Shown in pieces: positions 3,001 through 40,976 of a DNA stretch of 64,000 bases (the first letter of the stretch is position 1; each line of letters opens with the position of its first letter). Both the position numbers and the translations under genes were made by a program. The stretch comes from Cinnamomum chago (Eukaryota; Streptophyta; Magnoliopsida; Laurales; Lauraceae), in assembly GCA_038049695.1 (NCBI GenBank), contig CP142451.1, forward strand, positions 33,092,001 to 33,156,000. The letters are read 5' to 3'. The notes beneath the pieces are model-generated. The model was not told the origin of the DNA. It saw only the letters and a program-made list of their open reading frames with translations, and did no database searches.

Positions 3001-3416
3001 GAGTGCTTTGGGAAGGAATTCTGCAGACACTGATTGCAGAAGCATTTGATCTCTTTTGCTCCATAAAGCAAGAAACCCACTGTAGTGCTATTGAACTGTT
3101 TTATCATTCTGACAGTATTTAACTAGTTCGGTGTCAAGGTGAAAACGCCTTGCTTTGTTGGCTTGCTGATATAATTTCTTCAGATGGGTTCACTTGCCGA
3201 TTGCACAGAGTTAAGAATCCAAGTGACCACCTTAGCATTATTTTGGTTCCAGGCAGCAAGTGTTTTAGCATCAGTATTATCTGTTGTTCGCTGAGGATTA
3301 GTGTCATCCAGATATCCTAGTAGGCTTTCGCCTTCCACACAGTTCTTGAGATGGCAAGACTAACTCATGTAGTTGGTGCCATCCAGTTTGATAGGGAGAA
3401 CCTCCATTTTATCCAT
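1..3416 (-). pseudogene. Copia gag-pol pseudogene (element A)
   Basis: Domains in order on the minus strand: gag (3416-~2600), protease with [10 protein letters not shown] near 2350-2400, gag-pre-integrase and integrase (2194-~1100), reverse transcriptase (~850-1). An in-frame stop occurs about 18 codons into gag (TNYMS followed by TAG), and pol is broken into several frames. The catalytic YVDDM of reverse transcriptase reads YIDEM here (near 240-255). It cannot encode a working polyprotein. Confidence 0.88.
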
Positions 3417-4058
3417 TAGTCTAACTAAACAGATTGAATATGGATGATAATGACAAAAAATCTGCTCTTCAACAAAAAGCAGAAAATTTCAGCAAAAACA
3501 GGGCCTGGACGTCCAAGAAATTGTGCAAAAAATGGACAGATCTTCCCCCAGATATATTGGTTTTTCAAATCCACCCTCCAGAATATAATGATGATGGAAA
3601 TTCCCGCTTAATGAGGGGTTGGCCACTCCAATCCAGCGGTTGGATGTGATTTAGAGTAAGAGGAAGCAAAACTTTCTGATAAAACTGCCGAACCAAAGAG
3701 TAAAAAACGACTGACCTTTGTGGGTTAAAAAATTCCAGAAAAATGTTAATAAAATCAGGGATAAATGGTCGACCCTCTTAGGAAGATCCTACTTTGATCT
3801 GATAATCGAGGGTGGGGTCCACTTGCCGATTGCACAGAAGCACAGTTCTGTGATGACATCTGAAATTTGAAGATCTGTAGCAAAGTAGTTCCTGAATCTG
3901 AGAGAGGCAATCTGATCAGGAGATGATTAGGAGACGAGGGATCCAAACAGGAAGCAGGGTGTTGAATCTAGCCCACATTGGTCGAGTGAAAATGCTCCTT
4001 TGTTTCTGTAGTAGAGCGGTAAGGAAAGGTAGGAGATGATTCCTAGAGGACCAAAAAA

Positions 4059-4071
4059 GGCTCTGATACCA
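4059..4071 (-). promoter_or_regulatory. Copia primer-binding site (element A)
   Basis: On the minus strand TGGTATCAGAGCC, complementary to the 3' end of initiator tRNA-Met, placed directly after the LTR end TCTACA as in other plant Copia elements. Confidence 0.85.
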
Positions 4072-4187
4072 TGTAGACATATCTATGATAAGCTAGTTTG
4101 TGAAGGGAAGAGGAAGAAGGAGAAATATGGAGAACAGGTTGTATCCCAAACAAAGGATCGACTATGCTGTTTTATAATCATATTATG

Positions 4188-6500
4188 TGTAACAGCCCGA
4201 ATCCCAGAGCTCATCAAGACCCAGGGCATTACTATAGGAAATCAATATCACTACACAAATCAAGTTATGACAAGAATTGAGCAATATTTCTAATTATTAA
4301 ATACATCAATTAGAACAGATAAAAAGGAAAAAATGATAACAAGTCCAATAACAAATAATTCCTAACTCATAAGGAAGCCAGTTCAACATTATTGAAAGGA
4401 GTAATCCTTCTCTAAAGTTCTAAATTTCATTTTCTCTTATACAAGTGTGACGCCCTCTCATCAACCACGCAAATTGAAATCCAATGGCTGATCTCCATTG
4501 TTGCCAAGCTCCCCTAAGTGACCCGTACCTAAAGTGGGGCGAACCACTTGTCAGAAAACTGGTGTGCACTATTCCTAAGTTAACATTTCGAAAATAAATG
4601 TAGACCAATAATTTCAATATAAAAGGATAAGATCATATGATAAGAGAAAAATAATTTCTCATGGAGTCCCTTATGTTCTTAAAGTTTTCTAACATTAAGT
4701 TCATAACTGCGTCGTAACACGGATTAGGTTCGTGATTCTCATTTGATGAATATGAAGGATTCAATATGACTCCCATAAGAGAGGTCCAATGGTTCAGACC
4801 TTCCGGAACAGAAGTCATTTTTCATATGTCAAACGAAATCTCACACCGGGAAATTAGTTCAGTAACCATTAATGTATTCAATCCCTATCCAACCTTATCC
4901 CTCCAGTTTCACAAGGTTTCACTATTCAAAGTCACTATTCAGAGTAGTGATCATAATTGAAAATCAAAAATACATCGTTAATTCGTTCCATGCTTGCATT
5001 AAAATAATCAAATCAGCAATTACCCGAAACGTAAGGGAGTAGATCATTAATATAACTATACTCGTTAAAGTAGTTTGATAATAAGTTATGGGAACTGAAA
5101 TAATATTCATTTTCATATATATATTTATATATATGGCCAGTCCCACATAAGCCAGGAGAGTCATCAACGCCCCACTTCCATCCAAAAATTGGTACCCGTG
5201 CATGTGACATTAGCCATATAAGAATAACTTAGAATTTTATTTCCTAATAATTCTTTTATGTAACTAAAAGGATAGACTAACCCTCAGGTCCTCAAGAAAC
5301 TTCAATTCTCAAATCTCAACAAAAGTCAAAATTTCATATCATTATGCAGAACATCCTTACCCAACAATATGATGCCTCCTACTCAGTGGTGGGTACATGT
5401 GTCTTATAGTAACGCAAAAGAAAGTTGATAAAAATTTACCACAAAACCTCCCCATCCTTATCACTAACACAGAACATATCACTTTGCATTGCACTGTACC
5501 AAAAGAACACAGAAAGTGTCTCACGCCTAAGCATCTTAGGGAGGATGGTGGTGGACCCCCAACGGGCAGATCCACCTGGGACCAGGCCCATCCTAGTCGC
5601 CCACCAGGGCCCAACTAGATGGCTGGTCCTGATCATTCATCAGGTGGGCCCCTGGGTCTCACAAATTTCTGTCGACCTTGTGGATTCCAAGGCGCTGGAA
5701 TTCCATTTCCTACCTGATCTTTTCTATAACCTGATTCTTGTGTGTGATCTTCACATTTATGGAATCAATCCACATTAAAGAAACAATCCATACAGGTTTT
5801 GATCCCAACACAGGCATTAAAGCCATTATCAAACCCAGACATCCCCCATCATACAATAGTTTCCGGCCATGATCTATGAACCCCACTTGGTCAGTCCCAC
5901 AGAGGGACAGGCCCCCTTTGGTCGCCCATGGGTCCCACATCAGATCCTCGGATCGGATCACTCATCTGGTGGAATATGTGGGTCCCACTATCTCTCTTGA
6001 TCAAATCCATGCATGCCGAAGAGAATGAAAATCCCCAAATCGGTTTGGGTCTTCTTCTTTGTTTCATACCCCAATCATCACAAAAAAATAATAAAAATAA
6101 CAATCATACATGTATAAGAATACATTATCGTGTCTCTTCTCTCCAAGAGAGTTTTGGGTTTGGCCTTCATACATCGGAGTCCTACCAAATCCCATAAATT
6201 CTCCAAGAAAGCTGGGTTTCCAATTTTTCTCTAATACACAGCACCTCATACTGATCAATTGGAAGAACATCCCAAATTTTCATATTATCAAGTCGGAAAG
6301 ATCACTCACCTCCTTGTGTAGAAAATCGTGGCTCGGTCAATATGAGGCCTTGTGTATTGCATCCACTAGATCTTCCGGCCCTTTCTTCCTCCTCGCAAGT
6401 CTTGTCGGCCTCTGCTGATCCCTAAAAAAAGCTCTTCTGCACTCTGTTTTCTCCTCTCCTCTTTAACCACATGATAGCACCGATAGACATAACAGAGAAG
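4188..6500 (-). mobile_element. Probable large LTR (solo or fragment), related to the 46472-48667 LTR
   Basis: Begins TGTAACAGCCCG on the plus strand, directly inside the LTR of element A, so it is a later insertion. It shares phrases with the solo LTR at 46472-48667 in opposite orientation, for example GACCCATGGGCGACC and many GTGGGACCC blocks. The right boundary and target duplication were not found, so the end is approximate. No coding domain is seen, and the short frames in it are not gene-like. Confidence 0.5.
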
Positions 6501-7106: not shown

Positions 7107-9769
7107 CTACACCAAGTCATAAACTTGCCCTTCATCAGTGGATTTATATCCATCCACGTCTTCCTTGTCTGTCTCCTCTGACTCTTCCTCATCTACTAAT
7201 TGAAGAACACTTGATGATCTAGTCACTCTTGGTGTAGCCCTTCCCCTTGAAGTTGATGTTGCTCTAGTTCTTTGACTACTTTCTCCAACTCCAAAAGCTG
7301 TAGCAACATCACCCCATGTCAAAATATCATCATCAAACACAAGCTCATCATCTTCATCCAATTCTCTATCCATCCTCCCAAGCAACCACTCATTGCTTTC
7401 ATCAATATTCTTCAAAGAAATGGGATCAAGTATGCACGCATATCATATCGACGTTTCAGTGCTCTATTGTACTTAACAAATACTAGATCATTAAGACGTT
7501 TTTTATCCAACCTATTTCTTTTTTTGCTATGAATCTGCAACAATTAAAAAAGATCTTAAAATTTATATGTAGAGAAGAAAAATATTTTAAATTCATTAGA
7601 CTTGAGAAAAATACTCACATGCTCAAATACACTCCAATTCGCTCACAACCAAATGAACTACACGTCAGGCTAAGAACTTGTATCGCAAATTTTTGCAAAT
7701 CTGGGGTCTTGGAACCATATGCAGCCCACCATGCAGCTGTTTATTATAGGTAATTAGCATAAATTTATGGGATAAATGTAAAACATTAATTTTATAATAT
7801 AATGGAATAAACTTATGGGATAAAATAGTTTACCCGGTCCCGTTGTCGCCCTTTGCCTAATTGCCATAGGCAATCCAAATAAATTTTCAGCTTGCTTATA
7901 AATAGACAACTCTTGACTGATCTTATCTTGTACATCAATATTTGGCACCAGCTTTGATATACAATTATACAACCCTGCCATAACTTCATTATCGTGCTCA
8001 ATATTGGGATTCGAATAAAAGAACGCTGGGTTCAAAAAATATCCAGCTGCATGCAAAGGATGATGGAATTGAACATCCCACCTTCTGTCAATGATTTCAA
8101 AGATATTATTATATCTTTCTTCTTTTCCACCAAAAGCATTTGAAATGGCTTCTTTAGCCCGATCCATAGCTTCATTAATGTATCCGATGGGAGGCTTTTT
8201 CTCACCATCAACCAATCCAAGTACACAAAGAAGAGGACCCGAGACCTTAAGGGCATAGACAACAGTGTTCCAAAATGAAGGCATTAACATAATTTGTGCA
8301 ACCCTTTTACCCTGTTGCTCCTTTGCCCATTTGATTGTTGTCCATTCCTCTGAAGTGAACATTCCTCAATAAGTTGTTTTTTTTTCTTTTGAGGAATGCT
8401 TGCTAAAGTGAGAAAGGCAGTTGCAAATTGGATTTTTGCAGGCTTAATCAACTCTTTTATTTGTGTAAACCACCTCATCATATTTAGCAAAGTTGAGCAA
8501 TTATAAATGAACCCATGTACCACAATAGCCCTTTCAAATGTTCTCTTGAGACTTGGTATCTCAAAAATGTCTTCCAACATCAAGTCCAAACAGTGGGCAG
8601 CACATGGTGTCCAATACAAGTGTGCAAACTTTGCCTCCAAAAACTTTCCTGTTAGAACCAAAACAAAGAAAGAGATAAAAAAGAAAAGAAAAAGAAAAGA
8701 GAGTTTTAGATAACTGATTCTTTTAATACTATTAAATAAAAAACTTTTTTCCAATAACCACTAATTCTTACCCGCCAACACATTAGCTGCAGCACTATCT
8801 GTGACAATCTAGACCACATTAGCTTCTCCAATACGCTCCACAAACTTTTCAATTAGTTGAAACATTTTTCCTGCATCCTTTGAGTAGCTAGAAGCATCAA
8901 TTGACTCCACAAACATGGTTCCTTTGGGACAATTCACTAGAAAATTAAGTAATGTACTCCCTTTCTTGTCAGTCCACCCATCCATCATTATAGAACATCC
9001 ATACTTTACCCAATCATCCCGGTGACCCTTCATCAAATTATTAGTATGCTATATCTCTTTTTTGAGGAGAGGAACTCGCACCTCATGGTAACTTGGTGGT
9101 TTCATACCAGGACCATACTGCCCAATAGCTTCAATCATTGGTCCAAAACTGTCACAATTAACTGCATTAAAAGGAATTCCAACATCATACATCCACCTTG
9201 CAAATCTTAAACATGCCCGCTCTCTTAATTCTTTTCTATACGGATCATTTACATCAATTCTTGTCTGTTTTCCTTGGGCTTTTCAATTTTGCACAACAAC
9301 GTCCGGATTGGGAGTGAAGAATACATCAATAGGCCCTTTTTGCTTTGGCATTCTAGGTTGGAACACAGTGGAGATAGTAGTACTTCCACGAGCACTAGAA
9401 ACTTCACTACCATGAGCCAAGGGTCTTTTACCACGTTCAATGACCTCTACATCATCTTCTTCATCCTCTTCATACGCATTAGCCAATAGCCAATTCATCA
9501 AAATGAGGCAACATATTCATTTCTTCTTTTTCTTTCTTTTTCATTGTCATGTACTCTCTAATCTCTTCTCTAACTTCAACTGGACATTTTGGACAAGCAG
9601 TAATATTCCTGAAACCCCTAGCAAGGTGTTGCTTGACCCGATAAACACCTCCATTTGATATTTTGCCACAAAAATTACATTTGAACCTATTATTATTTTG
9701 TGGATTTTCCAAATGTGCATACTGCCATGCTGGGTCCTTTCTACTACTACCTTCCGATGGCGTTGACAT
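7107..9769 (-). pseudogene. hAT transposase (BED finger, DUF659, hAT dimerisation), fragmented
   Basis: Read from the ATG at 9769 leftwards. BED zinc finger at 9769-9480 (FKCNFCGKISNGGVYRVKQH then CPKCP); acidic linker 9500-9283; DUF659-type block 9036-8809 (SIMMDGWTDKKG); CAAHCLDLMLEDI block 8650-8550; catalytic-domain tail 8362-7754 (RRWDVQFHHPLHAAGYFLNP); hAT dimerisation piece near 7740-7660 (AAWWAAYGSKTPDLQKFA); acidic C-terminus to 7107. The blocks are in different frames. Some gaps look like introns (for example 8754-8650), but a stop precedes the DUF659 piece, so the gene is probably inactive. Confidence 0.75.
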
Positions 9770-10377
9770 CTATAAACAGCTGCAAAAGTAGCAGCAAAGA
9801 TCACCAAAAAATAAAATAATAATAAAATAAAATAGAATGCAGCAGCAGAACCAAAAAAAAAAGAAACAGCTGCAGGAAATAAAAATAGCAGCAGAGCAAA
9901 AAAACAAAAAGAACAAGCAGATTTACAGCAACCAAACAACGTAAAAAAAAAAAAAAAAAAAAAAAGAAAGCATGATCTGATTGATGAACAGGAAAAAAAA
10001 AACCAAAAAGAAAATCAGTGGTAGCAACAGCAGCAGCACAAGAAACAGCAGAAGTAGAGGTCACCAAAAAGCAGCAGCAGAACAAGAATACAAAAAAAAA
10101 AACAACTGTAGAAAAAAAAAGCAGCAGAAGCAGCAAAAAGAAAGAAAGGTCACCAAAAAGCAGAAACAGCAGCAGCAAGAACACCATCAAGACTAGCAGC
10201 AGAGATCACCAAAACAAAACAAAACAAAAAAAAAAACCAAGAAAAAAAGAAAGAAAGAAAGAAAGAAAACAGAAAACAGTAGCAGCAGAAGAAAAGAAAA
10301 AGAAAGAAACGAAACAAAAAGAAAGAAGTGAACGTGATGTACCTGCGCAGCGGTGTGAAGAAGCCAGAACGCCAGAA
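9770..10377 (+). repeat. A-rich / AGC-rich low-complexity leader of the hAT element
   Basis: Long purine-rich stretch with AGCAGCAGA and AAAAAGAAAG motifs and an A run at 9942-9964. The long open frames across it on both strands are low-complexity (poly-Lys/Gln/Ser or poly-Leu/Phe) and are not credited as genes. It lies upstream of the transposase ATG. Confidence 0.7.
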
Positions 10378-12586: not shown

Positions 12587-15500
12587 ACACACACCCACAC
12601 ACACACACACACACACACAGCGCCATTGCTATACAGCATCAATAATTAATTCACAGAAAAATGCTAAAGATCATATTTATGCACCAGTTTCTAATAGAAA
12701 TATCACCTTTGATATTCCAATTGCTGAGTGCATTTTACTATACACAAGCTTCACACCCAACATGTGCAATGGATATAAAATTGCTGCAATAATTCTTGCC
12801 CGCAACCAGTCAAACACGTCAACAAAAGGCGAATGTTGTTTTTGTACTCTTGTTAGAACTCTCCCCTACAGAAGAGGTTTATTTCAAATAAAATCAAAAC
12901 AATTAACTGCTAAAAATTTCTTTTAGGTGGGGAAACAACAATGAAAATTGCAACTTCTGATCAAATGAATGGAAGTAGGGAGATTATATGTGCTTCACCC
13001 TGATGATCAGACATGCCAAATTATTTTGGAAAGAACAAAAGTATTAGTTATAAGAATAAAAACCTCAAAAACCCTCTTTGCCTCCATGTATAGCAGACTT
13101 ATCTTTATCAAAGAAAGTGCAAAAAACTTTCGAGCAGACGCACTTGTATAAATCTGCTTTTGGATTCCACTGCAGTAGAGGTTGGAAATTTTGAAAGTTG
13201 TATCAGAAAAGTATCATTGCCGTATCCATAAGTTACTTCATTGTTTAGATTATCAATAAATTAAGAGACGGATAAGAATGGGAAAACTTTGCTACTTTCA
13301 TTGATATTTATATAGTACAACTTGGATACAAAAAAAAAGATATATGGTAACTAATTTGCTGTTGATCACATCAAATCTGTGGACTGAAAGGAGGACTCAG
13401 AATGGAAGGTTCATGCATCTTATAAGGTTAATCCAGAGAAAGTAAGATATATTTTTCTTTTCCTAATTCAAAGCATAGAAGTTGCTGAGAAAAAGAAAAA
13501 AAATGTACTAATTCGTAATTTGTGAGATTTCAGGGACTGTTCTGTAAGTTTGATAGGCGACAGATGATTTTTGAAATTTTGAAACATTAACTGAATTTAA
13601 GTATTCAGTGAGGGTTTTCCAACCTGTCAGTTTCTCCCTCAAAACTTTCTCCTTTTCTTCTCATCTCCAAATTTACTCAATTTTTCAGACGTTTTCTCAA
13701 TTATATGCAAGTATCTTTAGATTCAATTATCCAACTTGGCAGTCTCCAGCTGTTGCTCAGCTGGCTAGGGACATGTTGTAGTGTGCAGGGGTGACTGAGT
13801 CGAGTCTCTTCTTGGAAGGAAAAAAAGAAAGGAAAAAAAAATCAACCAGAGCCTACCTGCTCCAAGAAGATTTGAATGCAAACAAAAAGGAAGGGTTCTC
13901 AAGTCTGTTTGTGCAAGCATTTGATTTTTTTGGGCAGACTTCAACCCTGTTAATTCTCCAAGTACGATGAATTCTAGGGTTTTCTCATCTAAGGAATGAA
14001 AAACCTCAAGGGAAGAAAATAAGAAAAACAGAAAGAAATAACTTGAATTAGGGAAAAATAATCACACAATGAAGTTCATATCAAGAAAATAGGGGACTGA
14101 ACAAACAGAAGGGGCCTTCTATTTTCTTTCATAATAATGTACAAAACCCAAAAAACGGGAAGAAGAAAACAAGAAAAGGGGGAACCTAAAACCTAAGTCT
14201 AAATCTGACCCTAAATCTAAGCTTCGAGAAAATGTTGAAAATTAGGGACTACATCTTGACACAATTCTTTGATCTTCTTTATTGAGAATGGGCGCTATTT
14301 GTAAGGTACAACCATAGTTATCAACTTAAACTAGAAATTCCAATCCTAATCATAAAAGGAAACCTAATCATGACCATGCTAGGAAACTTAATTACACTAA
14401 AATAGTAAATCCTAATTTAGGAAACTTACTCTCAAAATTACAAATAATCCTACTGACCCAGAATCACAAATAAATGCCAATTCCTCAACACAACATAGTG
14501 TTAATTCAGAGGGTCTTTTCTAGGATTTCATGTATAATGGTTATACAACATAGATCTAATCAGGTTGGTAATTTATAATTTTTTATAGTTGTTTTGAGTG
14601 TAAGAGTCAAGCGAAAACAATCCCTTTGCTATTGGATATTTGTGTAAAGTGTAAACATCTTAAGAAGTTGTTTATTGGATATTTGGAGCATTTAGTCATG
14701 TTAGAGAAGGATTTCATTTTAATTATCTAAAAGGATTGTTCTCATCACAAAAATATTTTCCATAAGGTCTAGGGTATACAAAATAATCCACACTAGGGGG
14801 CGAGATTTCTGAAGGCACTTCCCAATTGCCTAATATCATAAGTCCAAACACTAGGATTACAACAATTCTGTTTGATGGTAGTATAAGGAATGGGTACTCT
14901 GCTAGAATAGAAATTGCAGGGAAAAAAGGAATGGGCACATACATGGGAGAATTAATGAACCTCCTACAGATGATCAGTATTCCAATTGAGAATCTAAAAA
15001 TAAACAATACATTAAGACAATAGCTCTGATAACATTACAATACCTACCAGAGAAGCACATAAATAACACGAGAAGGAAATTGGGCAGATGTGAGTACCGT
15101 CTTGTAACCGTCCTTTTACATTCATGTCTTTCTTATTTCATCCCTTTAAGTAATGGAGAATACAATCCTGGATTTGATAAAATCCCTTGATGAAGGGTAA
15201 TTACAGGTAAAGTAATCAATCTAAGCTAGTACATTATTCTATCAGACACTAATTTCTATGGTCCTTCACATTTGCATCAAAGTTTGAGATGAAGGGTCTT
15301 GGCATTCTTTGCCAGTTTTCAGGTCTTGAGATTCCCTATTCTTTCTTGTGGACTTGTGCTCTCTCAGCAAAAATATGCTTTCAACATTATCCATCGTGAT
15401 GCTCCAATAGATTCCAAGACCATGGCCACTCCTTTGGAACTCAATGCAAAACTGCAGACTACTGATACTGAACCTCTCCCTGATCCCACAGACTATAGAG

Positions 15501-18500
15501 AACTTTTCAGCTGCTTGGTTCACCTCACCATCATGTGTCCAAATATCACTTTCTATGTGCATCTTTTCAGTCAATTTATCTTTACTCCCCACACAGCTCA
15601 ATATGCTATTGTACTCCACACTCTGTCACAATCACAGCACCTTACATATGGGATTATTCAATCCATATACATCCATTCCTATTCGATGGGCCTACCAAGA
15701 TGTTGATTGGGCTGCTGATGTTGTTGATTGGCAACCCACCACTAGATATTGTCTTTTTTGGGTGATTCTCCCATTGCCTAGAAGTTCAAAATGCAATTTG
15801 TTGTTTCTTGATCATCCAGCGAAGCAGAGTATCATGCAATGACTCACGCTATTGCTCAAAATTATTTGGCTATGTTGGCTACTCTCGGACCTCGGCTTCG
15901 CTGTCTCCTACCACACTCCTCTCCACTGTGACAACATAAACGGTGTTCATATCACCGAAAATGTTGTACTTCGTGAATGCACCAAACACATTTAAGTTGA
16001 TTGTCACCTTGTTCAGCATCACTATCTACTAGTAACCATATCTCTCCCCTTTGTTCCAACCCTTCACAGATTGCCAACTTCTTTACTAAGAGTCATGCTG
16101 TGGATCACTTGCATCAATTTCTATCCAAACTCTCATTGCACTTCCTACATCGTGACTTTATAAAGTTGGAAAGATTAGACTTAGTAAGAGAAGAGAGGAA
16201 TCATTATGTGTAGAAGTCATTATGTGTAGAAGACAACAGAGACAACAGGCCCAGCAGGCCCAGCCCATGTGCAAAGTGTAGAAGATAACAGGCCCAGCAG
16301 GCCCAGCCCATGTGCCAAGCCCACTCATGGGATATAAACAAATCTGTACAGGATTAGATTTAGTCCCTAATTTCTCTCCTTCTATGTATAGGAAATAATT
16401 GATTATTTCCATTCTTTTGTTATTCTGATTTGTATCTAATTTGTAATCTTTACTTAATTAGAGCCTTGATTAAGGCATCATATCAATATAAATATGATAG
16501 TCGATGCATTGTGTTGGCACGACCTTCTCTCCACTCTTCTTCTTTCATTCTTCTTCCTCCTTCATATCTTCTAACATGGTATCAGAGCCATAACACCTTG
16601 GAGGCCTCATTATTCTGACATCTACGCTACTTGGAAGAAACACAGATCAAGGATCTGTGCTTTGGGCAAGCAAATCGTGGCTGTTCCCTCATCTGATCAA
16701 TAGTGGCCCACCTGCGATCATCTCACAATCCACAAGCTTCACTCCAGCCTTGGTCGTCCATCTCTCCTAGTCTTTTTGGAGATTTTTTCAGTATTTTTCA
16801 TAGATCAGAGGTAGGCCTTTTGATCTGTCTTGTGATTATCAAACTTTTTGAAATAGTTTTCATCTCAACCGCACAAAAATCTGGATTCTGAATGGATCTT
16901 GATGAGACCAGTACTGCTGGAAAGGAAAATTGATACTAGTCTCTAGCCTCTAATCTGATTCTCAATCAGATAAATCTGTGGGTCCCACGCAGGGATCCTG
17001 CATCCAAATTTCAGGACGTCGGGCTGTTTTATTGACAAAACAGGCACTTTTATGTGCTGTTTCATGTTGGATGCTTCATCAGCCGCTAGTTACAGCTGAT
17101 TTCTGATCTGAGGGTTGTTTTTCTTCTTTAAAACAGCCACCTTTATGTGCTGGATACTGTTTGGATGCTTCATCAACTACTAGTTACTGCTGATTTCTGA
17201 TCTGAGGGCTGCTTTGTCTTCTTTAAAACTGCTGGAATTCAGCACTGGCGGAGGACATCGCCCGATATTCTGCCTCAGCAGAAGACTTTGAGATAGTGGT
17301 TTGCTTCTTGCACTTCCATGAAATCAGAGATTTTCCAAGAAACATACACCAGCCAGTGGCGGACCTCCAAGAGTCCGGACAACCAGCCCAGTCAGCATCC
17401 GCATAAGCTGATAATTGCAGAGAAGTATCAGAAGGGAAAAAGAGACCATGATGAAGAGTTCCTTTAACATAGCGGAGGATGCGTAAAGCAGCAGCAAGGT
17501 GCGGTTTGTGGGGATTGCTAACAAACTGACTTACTGTGTGAACAACATGAGAAATATCCGGCCAAGTCATAGTTAAGTAGAACAAACTACCAACTATCCG
17601 CCAGAAAACAGATGGATCATCCAGGGGAGTGCCATCATTGGAACTGAGTTTGCTGTTCAATTCCAGAGGCGTATCGAAAGTGTGAGCATCATCAAGCCTG
17701 GCTGACGTGATCAAATATTGCGCATATTTGCGCTGAAGGACCCTAATGCCGGATTTGTTACGCACAAACTCAAGCCCCAGAAAGTAGGTAAGAGGACCAA
17801 GATCCTTCATTCTGAAGTGGCGAGTAAGGTGGTGTTTGAGATCTGTAATGCCGGCAGTATCATTTCCACTGATAATCATATCATCAACATAGACCAAGAG
17901 GAATGTGTAGCCCTTTGATGTCCATCTTAGGAAGAGGGAACTATCAGAGTGACTCTGACGAAATCCGGCTTGAAGGATTGCTGCCCGGAACTTATCAAAC
18001 CAAGCCCGAGGAGCTTTTTAAAGCCCATAAAGAGCTTTCCTCAATTTGCACACATGCTTTGGAGGACAAGCATATCCCGGTGGAGGTTTTAAATAAACAG
18101 TTTCGCGCAAGTCCCCATGTAGAAAAGCATTTTTGACGACCATTTGCCATAGAGGCCAATTGCAGGTTGCCGCAACACAAAGAAGAGTACGAACGGTGGT
18201 CATTTTCGCCACTGGTGCAAATGTTTCCTCATAGTCAATGCCATATTCCTGCTTATATCCCCGTGCAACCAATCTGGCTTTGTAGCGATCAAGGCTCCCA
18301 TCAGAGTGGACTTTGACGGAGTATATCCATTTGCTGCAATCACAGAGGCTCCATCCGGGGCCGGTACCAATTCCTATGTTTGGTTTGCTTCAAGAGCCAC
18401 TAATTCCTCGGTCATAGCATCCTGCCAGTAAGCAATCTTTGAGGCCTGTGAATATGAGGTGGGTATAGGAGTACTATCTAAGGAAGTAAGAAGAGCAGGA

Positions 18501-21500
18501 AAACCATAGCGGTTAGGGGCAACAGAAGGACGACTAGAGCGTCACATAAAAATGGTGCTATCAGAAGGAGTGTCATTACCTGAAGATGCAGTAGGCGGCG
18601 CTGGGAGAGGATCAGGAGAGGGAGTCGCCAGAGGAGGGACTTCGTTCCGCCGGACATAGACTTTGGGAAGAGGTGATTCAGACTCCGAGAATTGTGGCAG
18701 ATAGGATACAGCAATAGGATGACTATCCAAATGTAAAGAAAAGAAGGATTACATTACGAGAGATGCGCATGCGTTTTTCCAATTGATCATAACACAAAAA
18801 TCCCTTATGTTCATTACTGTAACCCAAAAAGATGCATTTAGCAGCCTGTGGAGATAACTTTGTGCACTCAGTCGGAGGAAGATGAACAAAACACAAGCAA
18901 CCAAAAACATGTAAGTGAGAGTATGAAGGGGTTTGACCAAAGAAAACTTCGTAAGGAGTAGTCTTTCCTAGAACAGTGCTAGGAAGACGGTTGATAAGAT
19001 ACACAGCAGTCTGTGCAACATCACACCAAAATTTGGGAGGGACTAAGGATGCAATCAACAGAGTACGAACAGTTTCAAGAATATGTCTGTTCTTTCTTTC
19101 CGCAATCCCATTTTGCTGAGGAGTATGCGGACAAGATTTTTGGTGAAGAATTCCTTTATCAGAAAGGAAGGTAGAGAATTCATGAGACATGTACTCTCCA
19201 CCGGAATCTGATCTAAGAATTTTGATTTCTTTCTGAAATTGGGTGTGGACCATGTTATAAAATTTTTGAAAGATAGAGAAGACTTCAGATTTCATGCGCA
19301 TAAAGTAAATCCAAGTATGACGAGAATGGTCATCAATAAAAGTCACATAGTATTTAAATCCTGTCCTACTCAAGGTAGGAGCAGTTCCCCAAACATCTGA
19401 ATGAATAATGTCAAATGATACCAAAGCACGAGCATTATGAACAGGAAAAGGCAAAATATGACTTTTACTTAGGCAACAAGTTTCACATTTTGATTGCGAT
19501 AAAGAAGACATCATTTTATTATCAATAGTAGAATCCAAACAACCAAATTTAAACAATGAAAGAAAATGCGCATTATTCACATGACCAAGACGTTTATGCC
19601 AAACGGTCCACAATGTATTGAAATTAGAAGAAGAAGCAAGGAAAGAATGATGTCCAATGTCCAGCAAGAACAGGCGCCCCTGTTTACTCCCCGTCGCGAT
19701 GACCTTCCCAGTTTGCCGCCCCTGTATAACACAACCAGAGGAAGAAAAGTGAACAAGATAGCCATCATCTATAAGTTGTCCTACAGAAAGTAGATTGGCT
19801 GATAATTTGGGAACAAAGTAAACATTGGGAAGGGTGATGGACTGGCCAGAAACACAAGATAAAGTAATGGTACCAACTCCCGAAATGAATAGTTGATCCC
19901 CATTAGCAACGGTTATTTTCTCTTTTCCAAGGTAACGGTGGGAATCTGTAAGGCTATGAGCTACAGATGTCATGTGATTGGAGGCTCCTGAATCTAAAAA
20001 CCATGTGGAAGAGGTAATAGGAGAAGAAAGAGAAGCAGATGAATGAAAAGCAGGAGATGCTATATGATAATGAGTTTGATACCGACCGCCAGAGAAGCCC
20101 ATTGACGCATATGCAGAGGTAACCGTGCTCTGGATCAGTTCTTGAATCTGAGCAGGAGTCATGGAAACAGCCCCTGATGAAGTGCTTCCTGCATCGGATG
20201 ATGGTACTTGAGCCTGGAATGCAGAAGGAAGATTTTGTCTGGGCAGATTGGAATGAGGCTTTTTAGGCTGCGTCTCATTCCTTCGCTGGAGGCTGCGGCA
20301 GTCATCAATAAGATGACCAGACATCTTGCAGTAACGGCAAACCAACTTCTTGCGGCAATTCTTGGCAATATGACCAAAGCCTTTGCATTCAAAGCATTGA
20401 GTGGGCTTTGGATTGGGGGTTGCTAGAAGAGTAGAGTCAGCCGGAATGGGTGCAAGGAAGGCCTTCGGTTCTTCAAGAATAGCCCGTTGGGAGGAGAGAC
20501 GAAGTTCTTCGCGAAGTATTTCTTGAAAGCAGGTATCGAGATTAGCCGACAGTTCTCGGTTCATGAGGGCAGACCGAACTGATTCAAATTCTGGTCGGAG
20601 ATTCATAAGGAACTGGCTAATGTGAGTTTCCTCTTGGAGTTTAAGAGCCTCGGAGAGAAAGCCAGGAGAGACTGTCTGAATCAACATGGAATCCCATTCG
20701 GTCCATATGGTGAGGAAGCCATTAAAGTATTCCTGCACAGATCGATCCCCTTGAGTAAATTTGGCAATTTCACTATCTAAGTGAAATTTCCGGGCTTTGT
20801 TGGTTTTATGGTAGACCTTCTTGAGGTGAGCCCACATATCTGCTGCTGAAATATATGCTTGAAGAGCTACGGCAAGGGAGGGATCAATGGAGTTCAGAAT
20901 CCAAGTAATCACCTTGGCATTTTCCTTGGACCAGGTGGCTATGGCTTTGGAGTCCGTGGTGCTTGGAGTTGGAGGTTTTGTAACTGTTCCATCCAGATAA
21001 CCAAATAGCCCCTGTCCTTCTACGAAGTTCTTCAGATGGAAGGACCAGGCCATATAATTTTGCCCATTAAACTTAACGGGGATAACATCATATTTATCCA
21101 TGATCAAAAAACAGTAGTAGCAACAGTAAATCACCAAGTCAGCAGTTTTAAAGAAGACAAAGAAGCCCTCAGATCAGAAATCAACAGTGACTAGTAGTTG
21201 ATGAAGCATCCAAACAGTAACCAGCACATAAAGGTGGCTGTTTTAAAGAAGGAAAACAGCCCTCAGATCAGAAATCAGCAGTAACTAGCGGCTGATGAAG
21301 CATCCAACATCAAACAGCACATAAAAGTGCCTGTTTTGTCAATAAAACAGCCCAGACGTCCTGAAATTTGGATGCAGGATCCCTGTGTGGGGCCCACAGA
21401 TTTATCTGATTGAGAATCAGATTAGAGGCTAGAGACCAGTATCAAATTTCCTTTCCAGCAGTACTGGTCTCATCAAGATCCATTCAGAATCTAGAATTTT

Positions 21501-24500
21501 GTGCGGTTGAGATGAAAACTATTTCAAAAAGTTTGATAATCACAAGACAGATCAAAAGGCCTACCTCTGATCTATGAAAAATACTGAAAAAATCTCCAAA
21601 AAAACTAGGCGAGGTGGACGACCAAGGCTGGAGTGAAGCTTGTGGATTGTGAGATGGACGACAAAGGATTGGAGGCCTCATTATTCTGACATCTACGCTA
21701 CTTGGAAGAAACACAGATCAAGGATCTGTGCTTTGGGAAAGCAAATCGTGGTTGTTCCCTCTTCTGATCAATAGTGCCTAGCCCACTCATGGGATATAAA
21801 CAAATCTGTACAGGATTAGATTTAGTCCCTAATTCTCTCCTTCTATGTATAGGATATAATTGATTCTTTCCATTCTTTTGTTATTCTGATTTGTATCTAA
21901 TTTGTAATCTTTACTTAATTAGAGCCTTGATTAAGGCATCATATCAATATAAATATGATAGTCGATGCTCTGTGTTGGCACGACCTTCTCTCCACTCTTC
22001 TTCTTCTCATTCTTCTTCCTCCTTCATATCTTCTAACATTATGTTCACAAGAAAAACAGTTTAGCAAACTTACCATTTTAAGAAGTAACAAGGTTTTTTA
22101 TGCAGCAGCAATACCACGTCATTGCAACAAGAGTCATGGGCCACATGTGGGACCCATGAAATTCTGATTTTTAATTGTTATTAGTTTTATTTTTAGCAAA
22201 GAGTGTAATTAGAATTAGGTTTCTAATTTGGATAGGATTTTATTCTTGTTTCCTAGTTTGATTATGGTTGATTTCTTAACCCCTAAGTTTCTGTTATTAT
22301 AAATATAGCCTTGTAGAGATCAATGATCTCAAGTGATTTTTGAGTTAATAAAATTTCCCTGCGTGAATTTATCATGGAGATTGTCTTCATCGTGATTATT
22401 CCAGTGGGAACCCTAATTGTGCCCTGGCACTTGCATCCTAACCCTAACCCTAGGATCGCATCAGTTTTGACAAACATTTCTAGCATGGGAACACTGGTGG
22501 ATGATAGGTAATCTTGCATTTGCTCCAAGAGACAAACCAAAATATTATACAGGGTGGCTAACCACTCACCAAACAAATTTACCAAGAAAGAAGTTAGTAC
22601 CAATTAGCCACACAGTTACAAGTTGGTACAACTGCGGTATAGTATAATCTGCTAATACATCGCCTAAGAAGAAAAATCACACAAAACAGAAGCTTAGAGA
22701 CCACATTTCAGAAAGATACATACCCAAACAAAAAAAAGTAAACTCTATTAAAAAAATACATATACCACTTGATTAATCCTTATTTGATTCAAATATGAAC
22801 TAAATAAACACCAATTGTATTTTTCATGAGAAATCAAGCAGCACATTAAAAGCACAATTTCCCAAATGCTTAGCATCATAATCTTATGCAGACAACATCT
22901 TGATCCTCTTCGAATTAGGCCTACATGGTCATGTGTCATCATTCAGCTTAGGGGAATGTACCTACAGCTGCTTCTGTAATTTCTCATTTATCTTGATACA
23001 ATTTCATGTTATCTATCAAAAGAAAAAAAAATGTGCCACAAAAAAAATACCAACAAAAGAAAATGCATAATTTATTAATGGAATAGCATAAAAATTAATA
23101 AAAGGAATCTGCAAATTATAAGAAAATATTGTTCCCCGAGTTGCAACAACACTAGCAAGCAATGAGGAACAACTGCTGGAGGTTATAGCTTTAATGCTCA
23201 TTGTTCAAGTGTTGACAACAGAATAACATGCTAGATCAATCAGCAACAACTGCAAGAGTTTGTGGCATTAATGCTCATGGTTCAAGTGTCGACAAGAGCA
23301 TAACACACTAGATCTAAATGTTTTGGTGTAATATAACAGAATTAAGGACAGTGAATTATAGTTGGACAATTGTTAGGCTTTACTAAAGAACAAACCTGCA
23401 GAGTGTCTCATAGACCAGAGGAACAGAAATTAAGTAGTGTGGTTGGTATCGCCGTAGATCTTCCTATCAAGTAAAACAACCAAACACCTTAGTAACATTG
23501 GCAAGTAAAAAAAATAAAATAAAATAAAATAACATAGATAATAAAGAAGTTGACAAATAAAAAGTCCTTCAGAAGCAGGAGAATGTCATCCTACTTATAA
23601 ATAGGTAAGTTGTTAAGTAGTTAGCTTGCCACACCTTTAATACATAGGCATTTTGGGTGTATTGGTTAGCAACTTGAGATGGTATTAGAGCCAACAAATC
23701 CCAGGTTCAAATCCGCGCAGGGCAAAAAAAGCCCCATGCCGCGTTTTGTGTGTGGGCACATGTGCGAAGGTCAAAAAGGGCCCATGTTGCGCCTTGTGCG
23801 GGCGTGTGCTTCAAGACCGAGCAGTGTCCCACCCAAGGGGGGGTGTTAAGTAGTTAGTTTACCGCACCTTTAATGCCTAGGCATTTCGGGTGTATTGGTT
23901 AGCAACTTGAGATGAACAATTATGAAATGGAGAACATTAAAATAATTTATCAAGCTTTAAATGCAGCCACCACATTAAGTTCGAATTGCAGCCCATGAAT
24001 TAAGATCATTCAATGACAATCCTTCAAACTGTACAAAAAGAACTGCTAATGTTGTTCATACAATATAATGATGATGATCACAAGAAAAATACCTTTAAGT
24101 TTTTTACCGTAGTGTATGCTTGTTCAATGCCATATGTGAATATGAAATACTCGCATGCACGTTCATAGGCATGCCAAGGTGGAAGCATACTTAAGAACCT
24201 GTCCCCGACTTCCGCAGGTACAATGTCCCACAAGTTCTTTATCTAAAATTAGAAACAAAATTAAAAGAAATGTCATCTCAAGTAACCAAGAGTTCCTAAA
24301 AAAGCTGAGACACGACAATTTTGAATGCTGGAATTTCAAGAAGGAATATTAGAAAGCCAAAGCATTCACGATCTTAGATCTTATTTGAAAGCATTGTTGC
24401 AAGCCTTAAAATCACACCACGAAGTGAGAATTTTTTTAAGGATAAATAGGCACTCTTATTTTAAAAAAGAAGCTTTCAAAGAACTCTACAAGTGCACGTG

Positions 24501-30500: not shown

Positions 30501-31437
30501 AGTGGATTTTTCTATGATTTCAGAAAAGTCAAGAACTATTTTGCAAACACCAAAAATAGTAGAGGATTTATAATAATATCAGGAAAAAAGTTAATAGAAA
30601 TATAGAATGATAGTTGCCCAACCTAGCACTTCTGTTTCCCTCAAGTCTCTTTTCTTTTCATATGTTCTAATTAATCTTTTCCCCCAATTTGTTTCAATTT
30701 TTGCAAACATTTCCATCTTTAAATTTAAATAACTTGACATCTACAAATCCAACTCCTTCAAGGTGGGTATGTAAACCACCCACAACATGATGATTGTTAT
30801 GAGGAAGAATAAGAAACAAACAGATGCCACAAGTCATATGATTCGTTGCACAAAAGTCCATCCTCTGGCACGTATTTGAATGATGAAAAGACATAAATGG
30901 GAAACCATTAAAGTACCTGGCCAAACAGCAGTAGACTATAACGTACATCAAAAGTACTAAGACAATAACAAAGCTCTTAGATCTCATTCTAGATAGAATT
31001 ATTGATTGAATCACCAATGGAAAATGCATTATGAGAGTTAACTTGATTAGACTTCCTCACCACCCTAAAAGAGTCTTCGACACCTTCTAAATATATTCCA
31101 AGATCTAAAACCACTGTCTTCACACTATAACCAACCAAATTTGAATTCAACAAGCACAATTGACTGTAAAAATTGTAGAAGATAACTCATGAAATAAAAA
31201 GGCCCATGTACACTAATCTAGGCCCATGTAGAAAATCCCACGTGTGGGACTGGGTTAGGCATTATACAGCCTGTCTAATGGATATACTTCTATGTATAGA
31301 GATTAGGATTCTTTTATTCTTTGATTCTGATTGTAAATAGATTGTTATTACTGCTGATTGATAGCATGTAATTGGGGTAAATTTCATTATAAAATGGTTG
31401 GTCGATCCTCTATTGAGGAATCAACTTTTCCTCCAAA

Positions 31438-31482
<45 letters not shown>

Positions 31483-34400
31483 ATGCTCTTTTATATTATA
31501 TCATGGTATCTGAGCTGTGGTTCTGAGAGATCTCCTTCATTAGTCTAAGAGTTTTCCCAATCATCGTCGAGTGCTTCTCCCTAGTATCTCTTCTTCTCTT
31601 TGCCTGGAGTACCTCTAATCAAGGTGGCCCACCTCTGATCAATCACTTGTAGCCAGCAACCTACATGGTGATGATCGACTATTCTTCAAAGTTATTTTGA
31701 AGATTTTTCTGGATTTTTTTCTCAATCGATAAGGTGTTGTTCATCCTCTTCTTCATCTGGCGACTTTGACTCCTTCCTCTCAAAAGGATTTAATCTCCAT
31801 CGTACAGCTTTGTTGATATCTATCCAAATCTTATCAAACTCGGACTAGAGGACCCACTTTTGATCTCCTCCAGGATGATGTCCTCTGATCTGTGATTGGA
31901 CAAAGTTGTGGGGCCCACGCATCTCTCCCGCACAGAAACTCAAGGTCACCTGGCTGTAATTTTTTTTCTGTTCTGTGGGAAAATCTGCTGGATGCATCTC
32001 TCAGCCATTACAAGTGCCTCCATGCTGGATTAGTAAAATTATCTCAGATTACATCTTGTTATTAGCTGTAATTGGTTCTTTCTTTGCTGCTGGACTGTTT
32101 TGAGTCAATTGTGCATCGGTCTCTTCCTATTACTGGACTGTTTGGTTCTTCTCCGCTGCTGGACTATTTGAGTCCATTGTGAATGGTTCTTCCACTGCTG
32201 CTGAACTGTTTGGTTCCCTCCTGCACCTATCTCTCTTACTGATTTGTGTGGAAACAAACCACCATTTCGAAGTCTTTTGCTGAGGCAGAATTATTAGATT
32301 GAGAAAGAATGAGAAGAAGAAGATTGGAGAGAACGTGATACATCCTTGGATGATCCCCTGCTCTATTTATAATCATGTTAGGCCTTAATCAAGGCACTAA
32401 GTATGTCAAGTGTACAAATTAGAATAATAAAAGAATAGAAAGAATCAATCCTACTCTATACAAGGAATACAATCAGAAAGAAATCAGGGAATACAATTAT
32501 ACACAATCTTTGACACAATCAACCCACGTGTGGGAGTGGGATGCTGTAATGGGCCTTTGTTGGGCTAGGCCTTGGGCCTGTGAATATACAGCCTTGTTAT
32601 CTTCTACACTCCCCCTCAAATTGATGTGGTAGAGCAGAAAACATCAATTTGCTAGTAAGATCATGATGACGCGTTTTGGGGAGAGCTTTTGTGAAAATAT
32701 CTGCCAACTGGTTAAGAGTAGAGACGTGAGGCAGAGTGATCTTCTCAGTAACAACATGGTGGCGGATGAAGTGACAATCAATCTCAATGTGCTTTGTTCT
32801 TTCATGAAAGACTGGATTGTTAGCAATCCTGGTAGCACTGGTATTGTCCCCATGAAGAGGTGTAGAACTTCCAACAAGAACCCCGAATTCACAGAGAAGA
32901 CGGCGTAGCCAGATGATTTCAGCATTAGCAGACGACATTGCGCGATATTCGGCCTCCGCAGAAGACTTGGAAACTGTAGTTTGCTTCTTGCACTTCCACG
33001 AAATCAGAGAATCCCCAAGGAACATACACCAGCCAGTGGTGGATCGCCGAGAATCAGGGCAACCAGCCCAGTCGGCATCCACATAAGCCGAGAGGCGCAG
33101 AGAAGAGCTAGAAGGGTAGAAGAGACCATGGTTAAGAGTGCCTTTAACATAGCGGAGTATGCGCAAAGCAGCAGCAAGGTGGGGTTTGTGAGGATTGCTC
33201 ATAAACTGGCTAACCGTATGAACTGCATGAGAAATATCAGGCCGAGTCATAGTTAAGTAGAGCAAACTCCCAACTATCCGCCGAAACACAAAGGGATCTT
33301 CCAGAGGAGGACCATCATCCATACTGAGTTTGCTGTTAAGTTCCGTAGGCGTATCAAAAGTGTGAGCATCGCCAAGTCTTGCCGAAGTGATCAAATCGGT
33401 AGCATATTTACGCTGATGAACCCAGATGCCCGATTTGTTACGCAAAAACTCAAGCCCCAGAAAGTAGGTGAGAGGACCAAGATCCTTCATCCGGAAGTGG
33501 CGAGTGAGATGGTGTTTGAGATCTGTAATGCCAGTAGTATCATTGCCACTGATGATCATATCATCAACATAGACCAAAAGGAATGTGTAGCCCTTTGGTG
33601 TCCATCGAAGAAATAGGGAGCTATCAGAATGACTCTGACGAAATCCGGCTTGAAGTATTGCGGCCCAGAATTTATCAAACCAAGCCCTGGGAGCCTGCTT
33701 GAGGCCATAAAGAGATTTCCGCAATTTGCAAACATGCTGAGGAGGACAAGCATATCCCGGAGGGGGTTTTAAGTAGACAGTCTCTTTCAACTCGCCATGA
33801 AGAAAGGCATTTTTGACATCCATTTGCCATAGAGGCCAGTTGCGGGCTGCAGCAACGCAAAGAAGAGTACGAACAGTGGTCATTTTGGCCACGGGTGCAA
33901 ATGTCTCTTCATAGTCGATGCCATACTCCTGCTTGTAACCCTGTGCAACCAATCTGGCTTTGTAGCGATCAAGACTCCCATCCGAGTTAACTTTTACAGA
34001 GTAGATCCATTTACTGCCAATCACAGATGCTTTTGCAGGAGTCGGTACCAAGTCCCATGTCTGGTTTGCTTCAAGAGCGAGCAATTCCTCATTCATAGCA
34101 TCCTGCCAGTAAGCTATTTTGGATGCCTGTGAATATGAAGTGGGGATAGGAGCACTATCTAAAGATGAAAAGAGAGCAGGAAATCCACAACGGTTAGGGG
34201 CAACAGATGGACAACTAGAGCGTCGCAGAGAGATGGTATTGTCAAAAGGAGCATGATTACCTGCTGGTTCAAGCGGCGGCACTGGTGGAGGATCAGGAGA
34301 GGGAGTCACCATAGAAGGAACCTTGTAGCGCCGGACATAGACTTTGGGAACAGAGGATGGAGAAGGAGATTCCTGAAAATGTAGTAAATAGGACACAGCA

Positions 34401-37400
34401 AGAGGATGATGATCCAAGCGTAAAGAAAAGAAAGGAATCTGTTCCAAGAAGATCACATTGCGAGATATGCGCATGCGTTTTTCGAACTGATCATAACACA
34501 GAAAACCTTTGTGGTCATTACTGTAGCCAAGAAAAACGCACTTGGCCGCCTGTGGTGATAACTTAGAGCGCTCAGTAGGAGGAAGATGAACAAAGCATAA
34601 GCAACCAAAAACACGTAAGTGAGAGTATGAAGGGGTACTACCAAAAAGAACTCCGTAAGGAGTAGTCTTTCCTAGAACAGTGCTGGGAAGACGGTTAATA
34701 AGATACACAGCAGTCTGTGCAGCATCACACCAAAATTGGGGAGAGACTAAGGATGCAATTAAAAGAGTACGAACAGTTCCAAGAATATGTCGGTTCTTCC
34801 TTTCCGCAATTCCATTTTGCTGAGGGGTATGTGGACAAGATTTTTTATGAAGAATGCCTTTATCAGAAAGGAAGGCAGAGAATTCATGAGACATGTATTC
34901 TCCACCGGAATCTGATCTAAGAATCTTGATAGCTCTCTGAAATTGGGTTTGGACCATGTTATAAAATTTTTGAAAAATGGAGAAGACTTCAGATTTCAAA
35001 CGCATAAAGTAAATCCAAGTATACCGAGAATGGTCATCGATAAAGGTCACATAGTACTTAAATCCCGTCCTACTCAAGGTAGGAGCAATACCCCAAACAT
35101 CAGAATGAATAATGTCAAATGATGCTAATGCGCGAGAATTATGAACAGGAAAAGGCAAAATGTGACTTTTACTTAAGCAACAAGTTTCACACTTTGATTG
35201 AGAGAAAGAAGACATCATTTTATTATCAATTTTAGAATCCAAACAACCAATCTTAAATAAGGAAAGCAAATGGGCATTGTTTACATGACCAAGACGGTTA
35301 TGCCAAACAGTCCGTAATTTATTGAAATTTTGAGAAGAAGAGGAAGCAATGAAAGAATGATGTCCAATGTCCAGCAAGAACAGGCGTCCATGTTTACTCC
35401 CCGTCGCGATCACCTTCCCAGTTTGTCGCCCCTGTATAACACAACCAGAAGAAGAGAAGTGAACAAGATAGCCATCATCAATAAGTTGGCCTACAGAAAG
35501 TAAATTGGCTGACAATTTGGGAACAAAGTAAACATTGGGAAGGGTGATGGAATGGCCAGAGACACTAGATAAGGTAATCGTACCAACTCCAGAAATGAGT
35601 AGTTGATCACCATTAGCAGTGGTTATTCTCTCTTTTCCAACGTAAGGGTGGGAATCTGTAAAGCTATGTTCTACAGATGTCATGTGATTGGAAGCTCCTG
35701 AATCTAAGAACCATGTGGATAAGGTGATAGGAGAAGAAAGAGAGGCAAAAGAATGGAATGCAGGAAAAGCTATAGAGGAATGAGTTTGATACCGACCACC
35801 AGAAAAGCCCATAGACGCATAAGCAGAAGTAACTGTGTTTTGGATCAGCTCTTGAATCTGGGCTGGAGTCATGGATATAGCCCCGGATGAAGTGTTTCCT
35901 GTATCAGATAAGGGTGCTTGAGCTTGAAATGCTGCAGGAATGTTCTGTCGGGGCATATTGGAGGGAGGCTTCTTAGGCTGTCTCATTCCGTCACTGTAGG
36001 CTGCGACAGTCCTCAATAATGTGACCAGTCCGTTTGCAATATCTACAAACCAATTTCTTGCGGCAATTTTTGGCAATATGTCCGAAGCCTTTGCATTCGT
36101 AACATTGAGTCTGCTTCGGAGTTGGGGTTGCCAGAAGAGCCGAGTCAGCGGGAAGAGGTGCAAGGAAGGCTTTTGGTTCTTCCATAATAGTACGCTGGCA
36201 GGTGAGACGAAGTTCTTCGCGAAGGACCTCTTGAAAGCAGGTATCAAGATTAGCAGAATTTTCTCTATTCATGAGAGCTGACCTGACAGATTCAAATTCG
36301 GGTCGTAGATTCATAAGAAACTGGCTAATATGAGTTTCTTCTTGCAACTTGAGAGCTTCAGATAGAAATCCGGAAGAGACTGTTTGGATCAACATGGAAT
36401 CTCTCTCAGTCCATAAGGTGAGGAAACCATTAAAGTATTCCTGCACAGATTTATCCCCTTGATTATACTTTGCAATTTCACTATCCAAGTGAAACTTCCG
36501 AGCCTTATTTGTTTGATGATAGACTTTCTTGAGATGAGCCCACATATCAGCAGCAGTGGTGTAGGCTTGAAGAGCCACAGCAAGAGATGGATCAATGGAG
36601 TTAAGGATCCATGTGATCACTTTAGCATTTTCTTTGGACCAGGTGGCTAAGTTTTTGGAATCAGTGGTACTTGTAGGTTTTGGCTTAGTGATCGACCCAT
36701 CAAGATAACCAAAAAGCCCTTGTCCTCCAACGAAGTTCTTTAAATGGAAAGACCAGGACATATAATTCTGCCCGTTAAATTTGATCGGGATAACATCATA
36801 CTTTTCCATGGCACAGTGTGGACAAGAAAGACCAGCAGCAATTTGAAGAAGAAAGCAACCAGCAGCAGGTCAATAGTAGTTAATGAGGAGTCCAAACAAC
36901 CCCCAAATCCAAGACAGCACTTCAATAGTAGTGGATGAGACTTCCAGTCTTACACAGCACACACAGGTGTAATTTTTCCAAAAAAATCAAGCCAGAAACA
37001 GTCCAGACGAACTGGATTTGGATGGCTGGATCCACATGTGGGACCCACAGATAGATCTGATGGATAATCAGATGAGAGGCTAGAAACCAGGATCAAAATC
37101 CTTTTCCAGCAGTGAAGGTCGCATCAAAATCCATTCAGAATCTAGGATTTTGTGCGGCTGTGATGAAAACTATTTCAGAAAGTTGAATAATCACAAGATA
37201 GATCAAAAGGCCTACCTCTGATCTCTGAAAAATTCTGGAAAAATCTCCAAAAAGACAAGAGGAGATGGGCGACCAAGGCTGGAGAGAGACTTGTGGATTT
37301 TGTGATGATCGCAGGTGGGCCACTATGATCACGATGAGAAAACAGTGAGTTTTCACCCACGTTTTGCTTCTAAAAGATACAGATGCGTGATCTGTATTGC

Positions 37401-40400: not shown

Positions 40401-40916
40401 TACCTCTCTTCATGGTGACAACACCAGTGCTACCAGAATTGCCAATAATCCGATCTATCATGAAAGGACGAAGTACATTGAGATTGATTGTCACTTCATC
40501 CATCAGCATGTTGTGACTGAGAAGATATATTTGCCTCATGTCTCTACTCTTAACCAGTTGGCGAATATATTCACCAAGGCTCTACCCAAAATGCGTCATC
40601 ATGATCTTACTTGCAAATTGATGTTTTCTGCCTTACCACATCAATTTGAGGGGGAGTGTAGAAGATAACTCATGGAATAAAAAGGCCCATGTACACTAAT
40701 CTAGGCCCATGTAGAAAATCTCACGTGTGGGACTGGGTTAAGCATTATACAGCCTGTCTTATGGATATACTTCTATGTATAGAGATTAGGATTCTTTTAT
40801 TCTTTGATTATGATTGTAATTACATTGTAATTACTGCTGATTGATAGCATGTAATTAGGGTAAAATTCATTATAAAATGGTTGGTCGATCCTCTATTGAG
40901 GAATCAACTTTTCCTC

Positions 40917-40976
<60 letters not shown>

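Follow-up and report, generated by a model that had tools for sequence, protein, structure and literature searches.

The DNA analysed here is a window of 64,000 nucleotides (nt) from Cinnamomum chago (contig CP142451.1, positions 33,092,001 to 33,156,000), which contains no N bases anywhere and harbours a composite retrotransposon, designated E1, whose coding interior lies inverted between two copies of its own leader. Base-by-base checking showed that E1 is a single copia insertion at 16209-22038, bounded by one 5-bp target-site duplication (TSD), TTATG, with its left copy at 16204-16208 and its right copy at 22039-22043. E1 most likely sits in a large intron of a putative acyl-activating-enzyme gene. 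Eight of 29 amino-acid patterns for acyl-activating enzymes were matched at five places, all on the minus strand (at approximately 49.3, 24.7, 24.2, 23.4 and 12.3 kb), and the gene name rests on these patterns together with the first-pass annotation of the window. E1 is located between the motif sites at 23.4 and 12.3 kb, with its pol-gag region in the sense of the gene. The exon-like motifs span about 37 kb (12.3-49.3 kb, minus strand), the introns hold several copia elements, and pieces of open reading frame near 56 and 60 kb resemble further exons by eye. Directly upstream of E1, decayed copia-like pol pieces were noticed on the plus strand at 15293-16150 (by eye, in the list of open reading frames), which would fit insertion of E1 at the 3' end of an older copia.

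E1 ends in TG...CA long terminal repeats (LTRs) and has a transfer RNA (tRNA)-type primer binding site (PBS) and a 5-bp TSD, which identify it as an LTR retrotransposon, and its domains follow the Ty1/copia order of gag, integrase core and then RVT_2. The left (5') LTR occupies 16209-16576 on the plus strand and is followed directly on its 3' side by the PBS, TGGTATCAGAGCC, at 16577-16589 (plus), which we take to be of the initiator-methionine type. Two plus-strand leader segments come next: leader A (16598-16705), the source of a second plus-strand copy at the right end, and leader B (16719-17234), the left arm of an inverted pair. At junction J1 (17234-17235) the leader is joined to RNase H, and the interval 17235-21101 encodes gag, integrase, reverse transcriptase (RT) and RNase H on the minus strand with its 3' end cut. 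The right arm, leader B' (21140-21656, minus), is contiguous with gag; it is followed by junction J2, a 13-nt templated patch that is a near copy of leader sequence (21657-21669), and by the second leader A copy (21669-21776, plus), which starts 8 nt after the PBS in leader terms. Junction J3 is a GTG microhomology between leader A and U3 at 21774-21776, from which the right (3') LTR, lacking its U3 start, extends to 22038 on the plus strand.

The first-pass annotation had described a single duplication around the whole unit, outer LTRs pointing the same way with pol-gag on the opposite strand, two inverted leader copies of about 516 bp, and RNase H cut where the left leader begins, and each of these features is borne out by the present analysis. 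Both outer LTRs lie on the plus strand, and a Pfam search of three open pieces, each scanned separately, located Retrotran_gag_2, gag_pre-integrs and rve within 18723-21170 and RVT_2 within 18021-18389 and 17226-18017, all on the minus strand. The two arms are inverted copies that differ at 17 of 516 aligned bases and by one 1-nt gap; their BLAST E-value was printed as 0.0, so the arms are not a chance match, and a chance repeat is likewise ruled out by stretches of 305 and 214 nt at 96-97% identity. The second leader A copy corresponds to 16598-16705 with 3 mismatches in 108 nt, and the right LTR (21774-22038) corresponds to 16312-16576 of the left LTR with 5 mismatches in 264 nt and two gaps. 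The coding region is broken, with the long open frame ending near 18.72 kb and a stop in RT at 18018-18020, and the right end is devoid of both the polypurine tract (PPT) and the RNase H tail, which measures 307 nt in relatives. LTR matches within E1 are confined to its two ends, and a reversed second element nested inside E1 is ruled out, as neither J1 nor J2 contains LTR sequence.

The junctions record a series of short steps. J1 carries one or two extra or changed nucleotides. At J2, which includes a patch overlooked in the first-pass annotation, leader B' reaches GAGATG, slips to an earlier same-strand GAGATG, copies GACGAC(C/A)AAGG and exits via TGGAG into leader A. The microhomologies at the two sides of the patch (J2a and J2b) measure 6 and 5 nt and that at J3 measures 3 nt, with P values of 0.005, 0.008 and 0.06, respectively, in a comparison with random joins; microhomology with templated filler is thus present at J2, weakly at J3 and not at J1. 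The leader-then-LTR order at the right end was correctly noted before, but the microhomology there is GTG rather than the proposed GTGCC, since the leader reads GTGGCC. None of the three junctions contains an LTR end, and autointegration, offered earlier alongside strand or template switching in the complementary DNA (cDNA), is therefore unsupported for E1, whereas switching before integration is the part of that proposal that is best supported.

The junctions were searched in the genome from which the window comes, assembled as 14 contigs totalling 1.06 Gb, with the best 40 candidates scored in each search, as the first-pass annotation had advised for deciding between shared and unique junctions. 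The leader arm has at least 41 matches listed in the genome (40 of 652 first-look candidates scored). For J1, J2 and J3, there was one full-length match each, E1 itself, among 52, 53 and 42 matches listed, respectively; a single full-length match is meaningful because any copy bearing the junction would be expected to score above the half matches that make up the rest of the lists. It follows that the E1 form is probably not transposing, and E1 looks like a one-off event. A transposing non-autonomous form is unsupported, given that no junction is shared among the matches listed and that the two U3s are unequal.

The ends of the two LTRs differ in a manner that bears on the history of the element. 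For most relatives, the match to the LTR begins at the position corresponding to 16275-16277 (most often 16277), the exceptions being L014, L022, L026 and L029. The left LTR of E1 is longer than usual, with a complete and partly tandem-duplicated U3 start in which an extra, second start occupies 16225-16276. In addition, a 16-bp tandem duplication lies across the host/LTR joint at 16201-16232, where TCATTATGTGTAGAAG occurs twice, making 16209 and 16225 equivalent LTR starts; this duplication probably reflects later slippage. The right LTR is 103 nt shorter than the left, but because the left LTR is unusually long, its deficit amounts to only about 35 nt of canonical U3. A second LTR start was also observed at either end of L026 (719-762 and 5769-5803), 43 and 34 bp from the first, and the duplication of the U3 start is evidently variable within the family. 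In the normal cycle, the U3s of progeny are copied from the 3' LTR. The combination of a full 5' U3 and a cut 3' U3 therefore indicates that the E1 form has never passed through a normal cycle.

The descent and age of the arms were assessed against 17 other leader copies, 15-17 of which cover each private site. Six substitutions (16801, 16880, 16910, 16972, 17064 and 17135) are common to both arms and occur in none of the others, and the arms pair in a tree with support of 99/97, in which 12 of 16 inner branches are open and the bootstrap has not settled. Judged from their sequences, the arms are sisters. The first arm has acquired seven substitutions and one gap of its own and the second arm ten substitutions; the two LTRs share one private change and show five differences. 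A duplication of half the LTR age is rejected at equal rates (20/624 versus 5/264, P = 0.007). In 12 relatives, leader divergence is 1.41 times that of the shared LTR part (bootstrap 5-95%: 1.02-1.89), and with the rate ratio held at 1.41, the ratio of arm age to LTR age is 1.23 (90% confidence interval 0.50-3.5). The leader duplication thus appears to be of the same age as the insertion within wide error, which makes repair long after insertion unlikely. Four differences between the E1 copies match alleles found elsewhere, namely 16681 (T in 7 of 16 others), 16883, 16509 and the 1-nt gap at 16544, and these could be either two-parent marks or recurrent changes.

Further information comes from 29 loci (L009-L037), a non-random set chosen because they gave the best matches to leader, LTR or RNase H. 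Nineteen of them (L009, L011, L014-L023, L026, L028-L030 and L035-L037) are colinear, meaning that gag-pol, tail and one or more LTRs follow the normal order on a single strand; among these, L026 and L029 have deletions, L036 has a break in pol, and the leader is divergent or undetected in L028, L030 and L037. Nine (L012, L013, L024, L025, L027 and L031-L034) are partial or fragmentary. A 5-bp repeat was found at the end pair in 11 of 28 relatives scanned, exact in six and with one mismatch in five. The remaining locus, L010 (1813-7184), is a composite with an inverted interior that is independent of E1. On its own strand, it starts with LTR, PBS and leader, and its gag extends to query position 707. 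An inverted LTR with an exact CTAACA end comes next, and after it the tail and pol, also inverted, as far as query position 1101; an LTR piece and 18 nt of U5 end complete the element, whose flanks (AGAGG and AAAGG) are one transition apart. Its joint between the precise LTR 3' end and gag is autointegration-like and has one full-length match among 40 matches listed; the exact LTR end points to a cDNA-stage event in that copy. L037 consists of two family elements in opposite directions about 2 kb apart (665-6094 and 8231-9901) and is not a composite. C3:114808000-114817900, where RNase H matches lie in both directions, holds two separate elements and is not a composite.

The window contains a second composite copia, E3 (31174-40993), bounded by one TSD, AAAAT, which as an A-rich word is weaker evidence. 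Its order is leader, then RNase H tail, PPT and an LTR that is cut at 38350, gag-integrase at 38369-40234, an inverted LTR stretch of 144 nt and, finally, another RNase H tail, PPT and LTR. The inner and inverted LTRs have in common a 10-bp insertion that is absent from both outer LTRs; it looks like a two-parent mark, yet it repeats the adjacent unit, so recurrence is possible. The E3 LTR/gag joint has one full-length match among 40 matches listed. Inside E3 lies E2 (32292-37756), a colinear minus-strand copia with LTRs 99.4% alike and a TSD of AGAAT at 32287-32291 and 37757-37761, which served as outgroup. Taken together, E1, L010 and E3 suggest that composites formed by strand switching are not rare in this lineage. 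Pattern searches of IMG/VR and GTDB contigs matched 9 and 23 stretches, respectively, and no relative was confirmed among them.

With moderate confidence, E1 is interpreted as arising directly from a single faulty round of reverse transcription in an otherwise ordinary copia family, with one integration by way of its outer LTR ends. Template switching before integration is favoured by the single TSD, the U3 asymmetry, the microhomology and iterated patch, arms that are not detectably younger than the insertion, and the two related composites. The order of the jumps, the use of two templates and the identity of the enzyme as RT are what we infer. Minus-strand cDNA would first have copied R and U3 of one RNA and then jumped via GTG to leader A, which would have been copied up to 8 nt from the PBS, a point at which the primer tRNA may have blocked the template (a correspondence noticed after the fact). 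Near the PBS, the enzyme would have switched onto antisense cDNA, with one slip at GAGATG leaving the 13-nt patch, and proceeded to copy the sense leader; a further switch would have united leader and RNase H. The complete left LTR would derive from plus-strand strong-stop DNA on a second, undeleted molecule, as proposed for the asymmetric-LTR proviruses of human immunodeficiency virus type 1 (HIV-1). Two routes to the interior can be envisaged. In the first, the enzyme would have used a sibling cDNA as template, continuing in the sense direction across gag and pol before switching back at RNase H. In the second, it would have switched to RNase H after 516 nt and finished a normal minus strand with a leader patch of about 640 nt at the 3' end, and a later crossover between the inverted arms would have flipped pol-gag. 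Both routes give identical junctions, and the present orientation of the interior may be the result of a later crossover or a choice made in assembly.

Several observations weigh against this interpretation. A direct inverted copy of the 3.9-kb pol-gag requires a second antisense cDNA template, and the flip variant, which spares that template, costs one later step. J1 exhibits no excess of microhomology (P = 0.44 for 1 nt or more in the random-join comparison), and no clear two-parent mark was found in E1, where the nearest relatives by segment vary without clear pattern. The unequal U3 pair is equally compatible with damage in situ, and the sister arms fit a single parent and an in-situ copy equally well. 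The limits on age are wide, the lower limit of the age ratio falling to about 0.37 at a rate ratio of 1.89, and repair soon after insertion is still a live alternative. In a Triticeae sample, recombinant complexes, which have no flanking TSDs, outnumbered template-switch complexes by 20 to 2 (PMC1950507). Finally, templated patches and microhomology are presented as hallmarks of plant polymerase-theta repair in the available part of PMC10923293.

The strongest competing explanation is repair in situ, which we regard as unlikely while giving it real weight. It holds that an early double-strand break removed the 3' end (RNase H tail, PPT and U3 start) of a normal copy, that Polymerase-theta or synthesis-dependent end joining filled in leader sequence (516 + 13 + 108 nt), and that a crossover between the arms flipped pol-gag. 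When the interior is flipped back, the damage is indeed limited to the 3' end, with about 640 nt of leader in its place, and the six private changes shared by the arms look as if the filler had been copied from E1's own leader. A filler of 516 nt is long for this pathway; moreover, the copied leader cannot be shown to be younger than the two LTRs, and the exact LTR terminus used by L010, a composite that arose independently in the family, points to cDNA. Iterated microhomology and templated filler, which are shared by E1 and polymerase-theta insertions, are typical of such repair in Arabidopsis according to the available text of PMC10923293, but those insertions arise at chromosomal breaks, whereas the duplicates of E1 match the insertion in age, within wide error.

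End joining of several extrachromosomal cDNA fragments before integration, including autointegration-like attack by LTR ends, appears improbable. L010, which unites a precise LTR 3' end with gag in inverted orientation, provides a precedent within the family, and Arabidopsis mutants frequently contain copia circles that are chimeric or truncated (PMC10462705). However, LTR termini are absent from the internal junctions of E1, and four separate pieces would be needed, one of just 108 nt. Comparably little credence is given to a broader extension of the switching model, in which antisense-to-sense switching between sibling cDNAs would recur (perhaps in a few per cent of copies, considering E1 and L010 in a chosen sample), the E1 arms would act as an intronic flip site, both orientations of pol-gag would segregate in the species, and the intron transcript could form a long hairpin.

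An orientation artefact, in which E1 is real, pol-gag is truly in normal orientation and the assembler flipped 17235-21139 between the arms, is very improbable. Inversion of the interior between the arms leaves the sequence of J1-J3 unchanged, and reads shorter than about 5 kb would be unable to fix the orientation because the arms are 96.5% alike and 3.9 kb apart; against this stand the 17 sites that differ between the arms, the lack of N's in the window, and the inverted interior of L010, another copy of the family. A simple inversion after insertion is rejected, as a clean inversion yields no second leader and a staggered-break inversion explains the arms but neither the loss of RNase H nor the leader-then-LTR end. 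The earlier argument that a simple inversion does not duplicate the leader holds for such a clean cut, but it overlooks that a leader patch at the 3' end followed by a crossover between the arms gives the same sequence.

Several known systems resemble E1 in part. Sabot and Schulman recognized template-switch complexes by one TSD around the unit and similar outer LTRs (PMC1950507). Like E1, these are composite copia elements with one 5-bp TSD and near-identical outer LTRs, and their origin was likewise attributed to abnormal template switching in reverse transcription; they differ in having a third, internal LTR and two complete cores, whereas E1 has one inverted core and no internal LTR (PMC1950507). 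In HIV-1, an intact 5' LTR with a partly deleted 3' LTR was the commonest asymmetric type (24 of 88 proviruses) in the accessible part of PMC9278108, which attributes it to minus-strand synthesis that leaves U3 for a site upstream, with the 5' LTR completed by plus-strand strong-stop DNA of a second genome. E1 shares the intact 5' LTR and a 3' deletion running from upstream into U3, and is distinct from these proviruses in being a plant copia with an added inverted leader and, as assembled, an inverted coding interior. Two proviruses with internal inversions, one with and one without a deletion of more than 1 kb, are tallied in the same part of PMC9278108, and defective proviruses of this kind are also mentioned in the available portion of PMC9238239; they share with E1 an inverted internal segment in the integrated product, and within those portions of both papers neither a leader duplication nor a mechanism of inversion is described. 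In Arabidopsis, co-packaged copia RNAs of ONSEN recombine often (PMC5668417, available text), and truncated new insertions of EVD retain two LTRs (PMC10462705, available text). Like E1, these are copia copies that underwent recombination or truncation at about the cDNA stage; term searches of these texts found no inversions. Literature searches on inverted interiors or autointegration found, judging by title, no paper on inverted plant elements, a negative that reaches no further than these searches. E1 looks like a mishap of a type already described and not like a new type of element.

E1 represents a readable fossil of a likely reverse-transcription accident in a plant copia, in which the individual jumps are traceable base by base. 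Annotation tools may misread composites of this type as nested or truncated elements, and such composites place long inverted repeats in the introns of genes.

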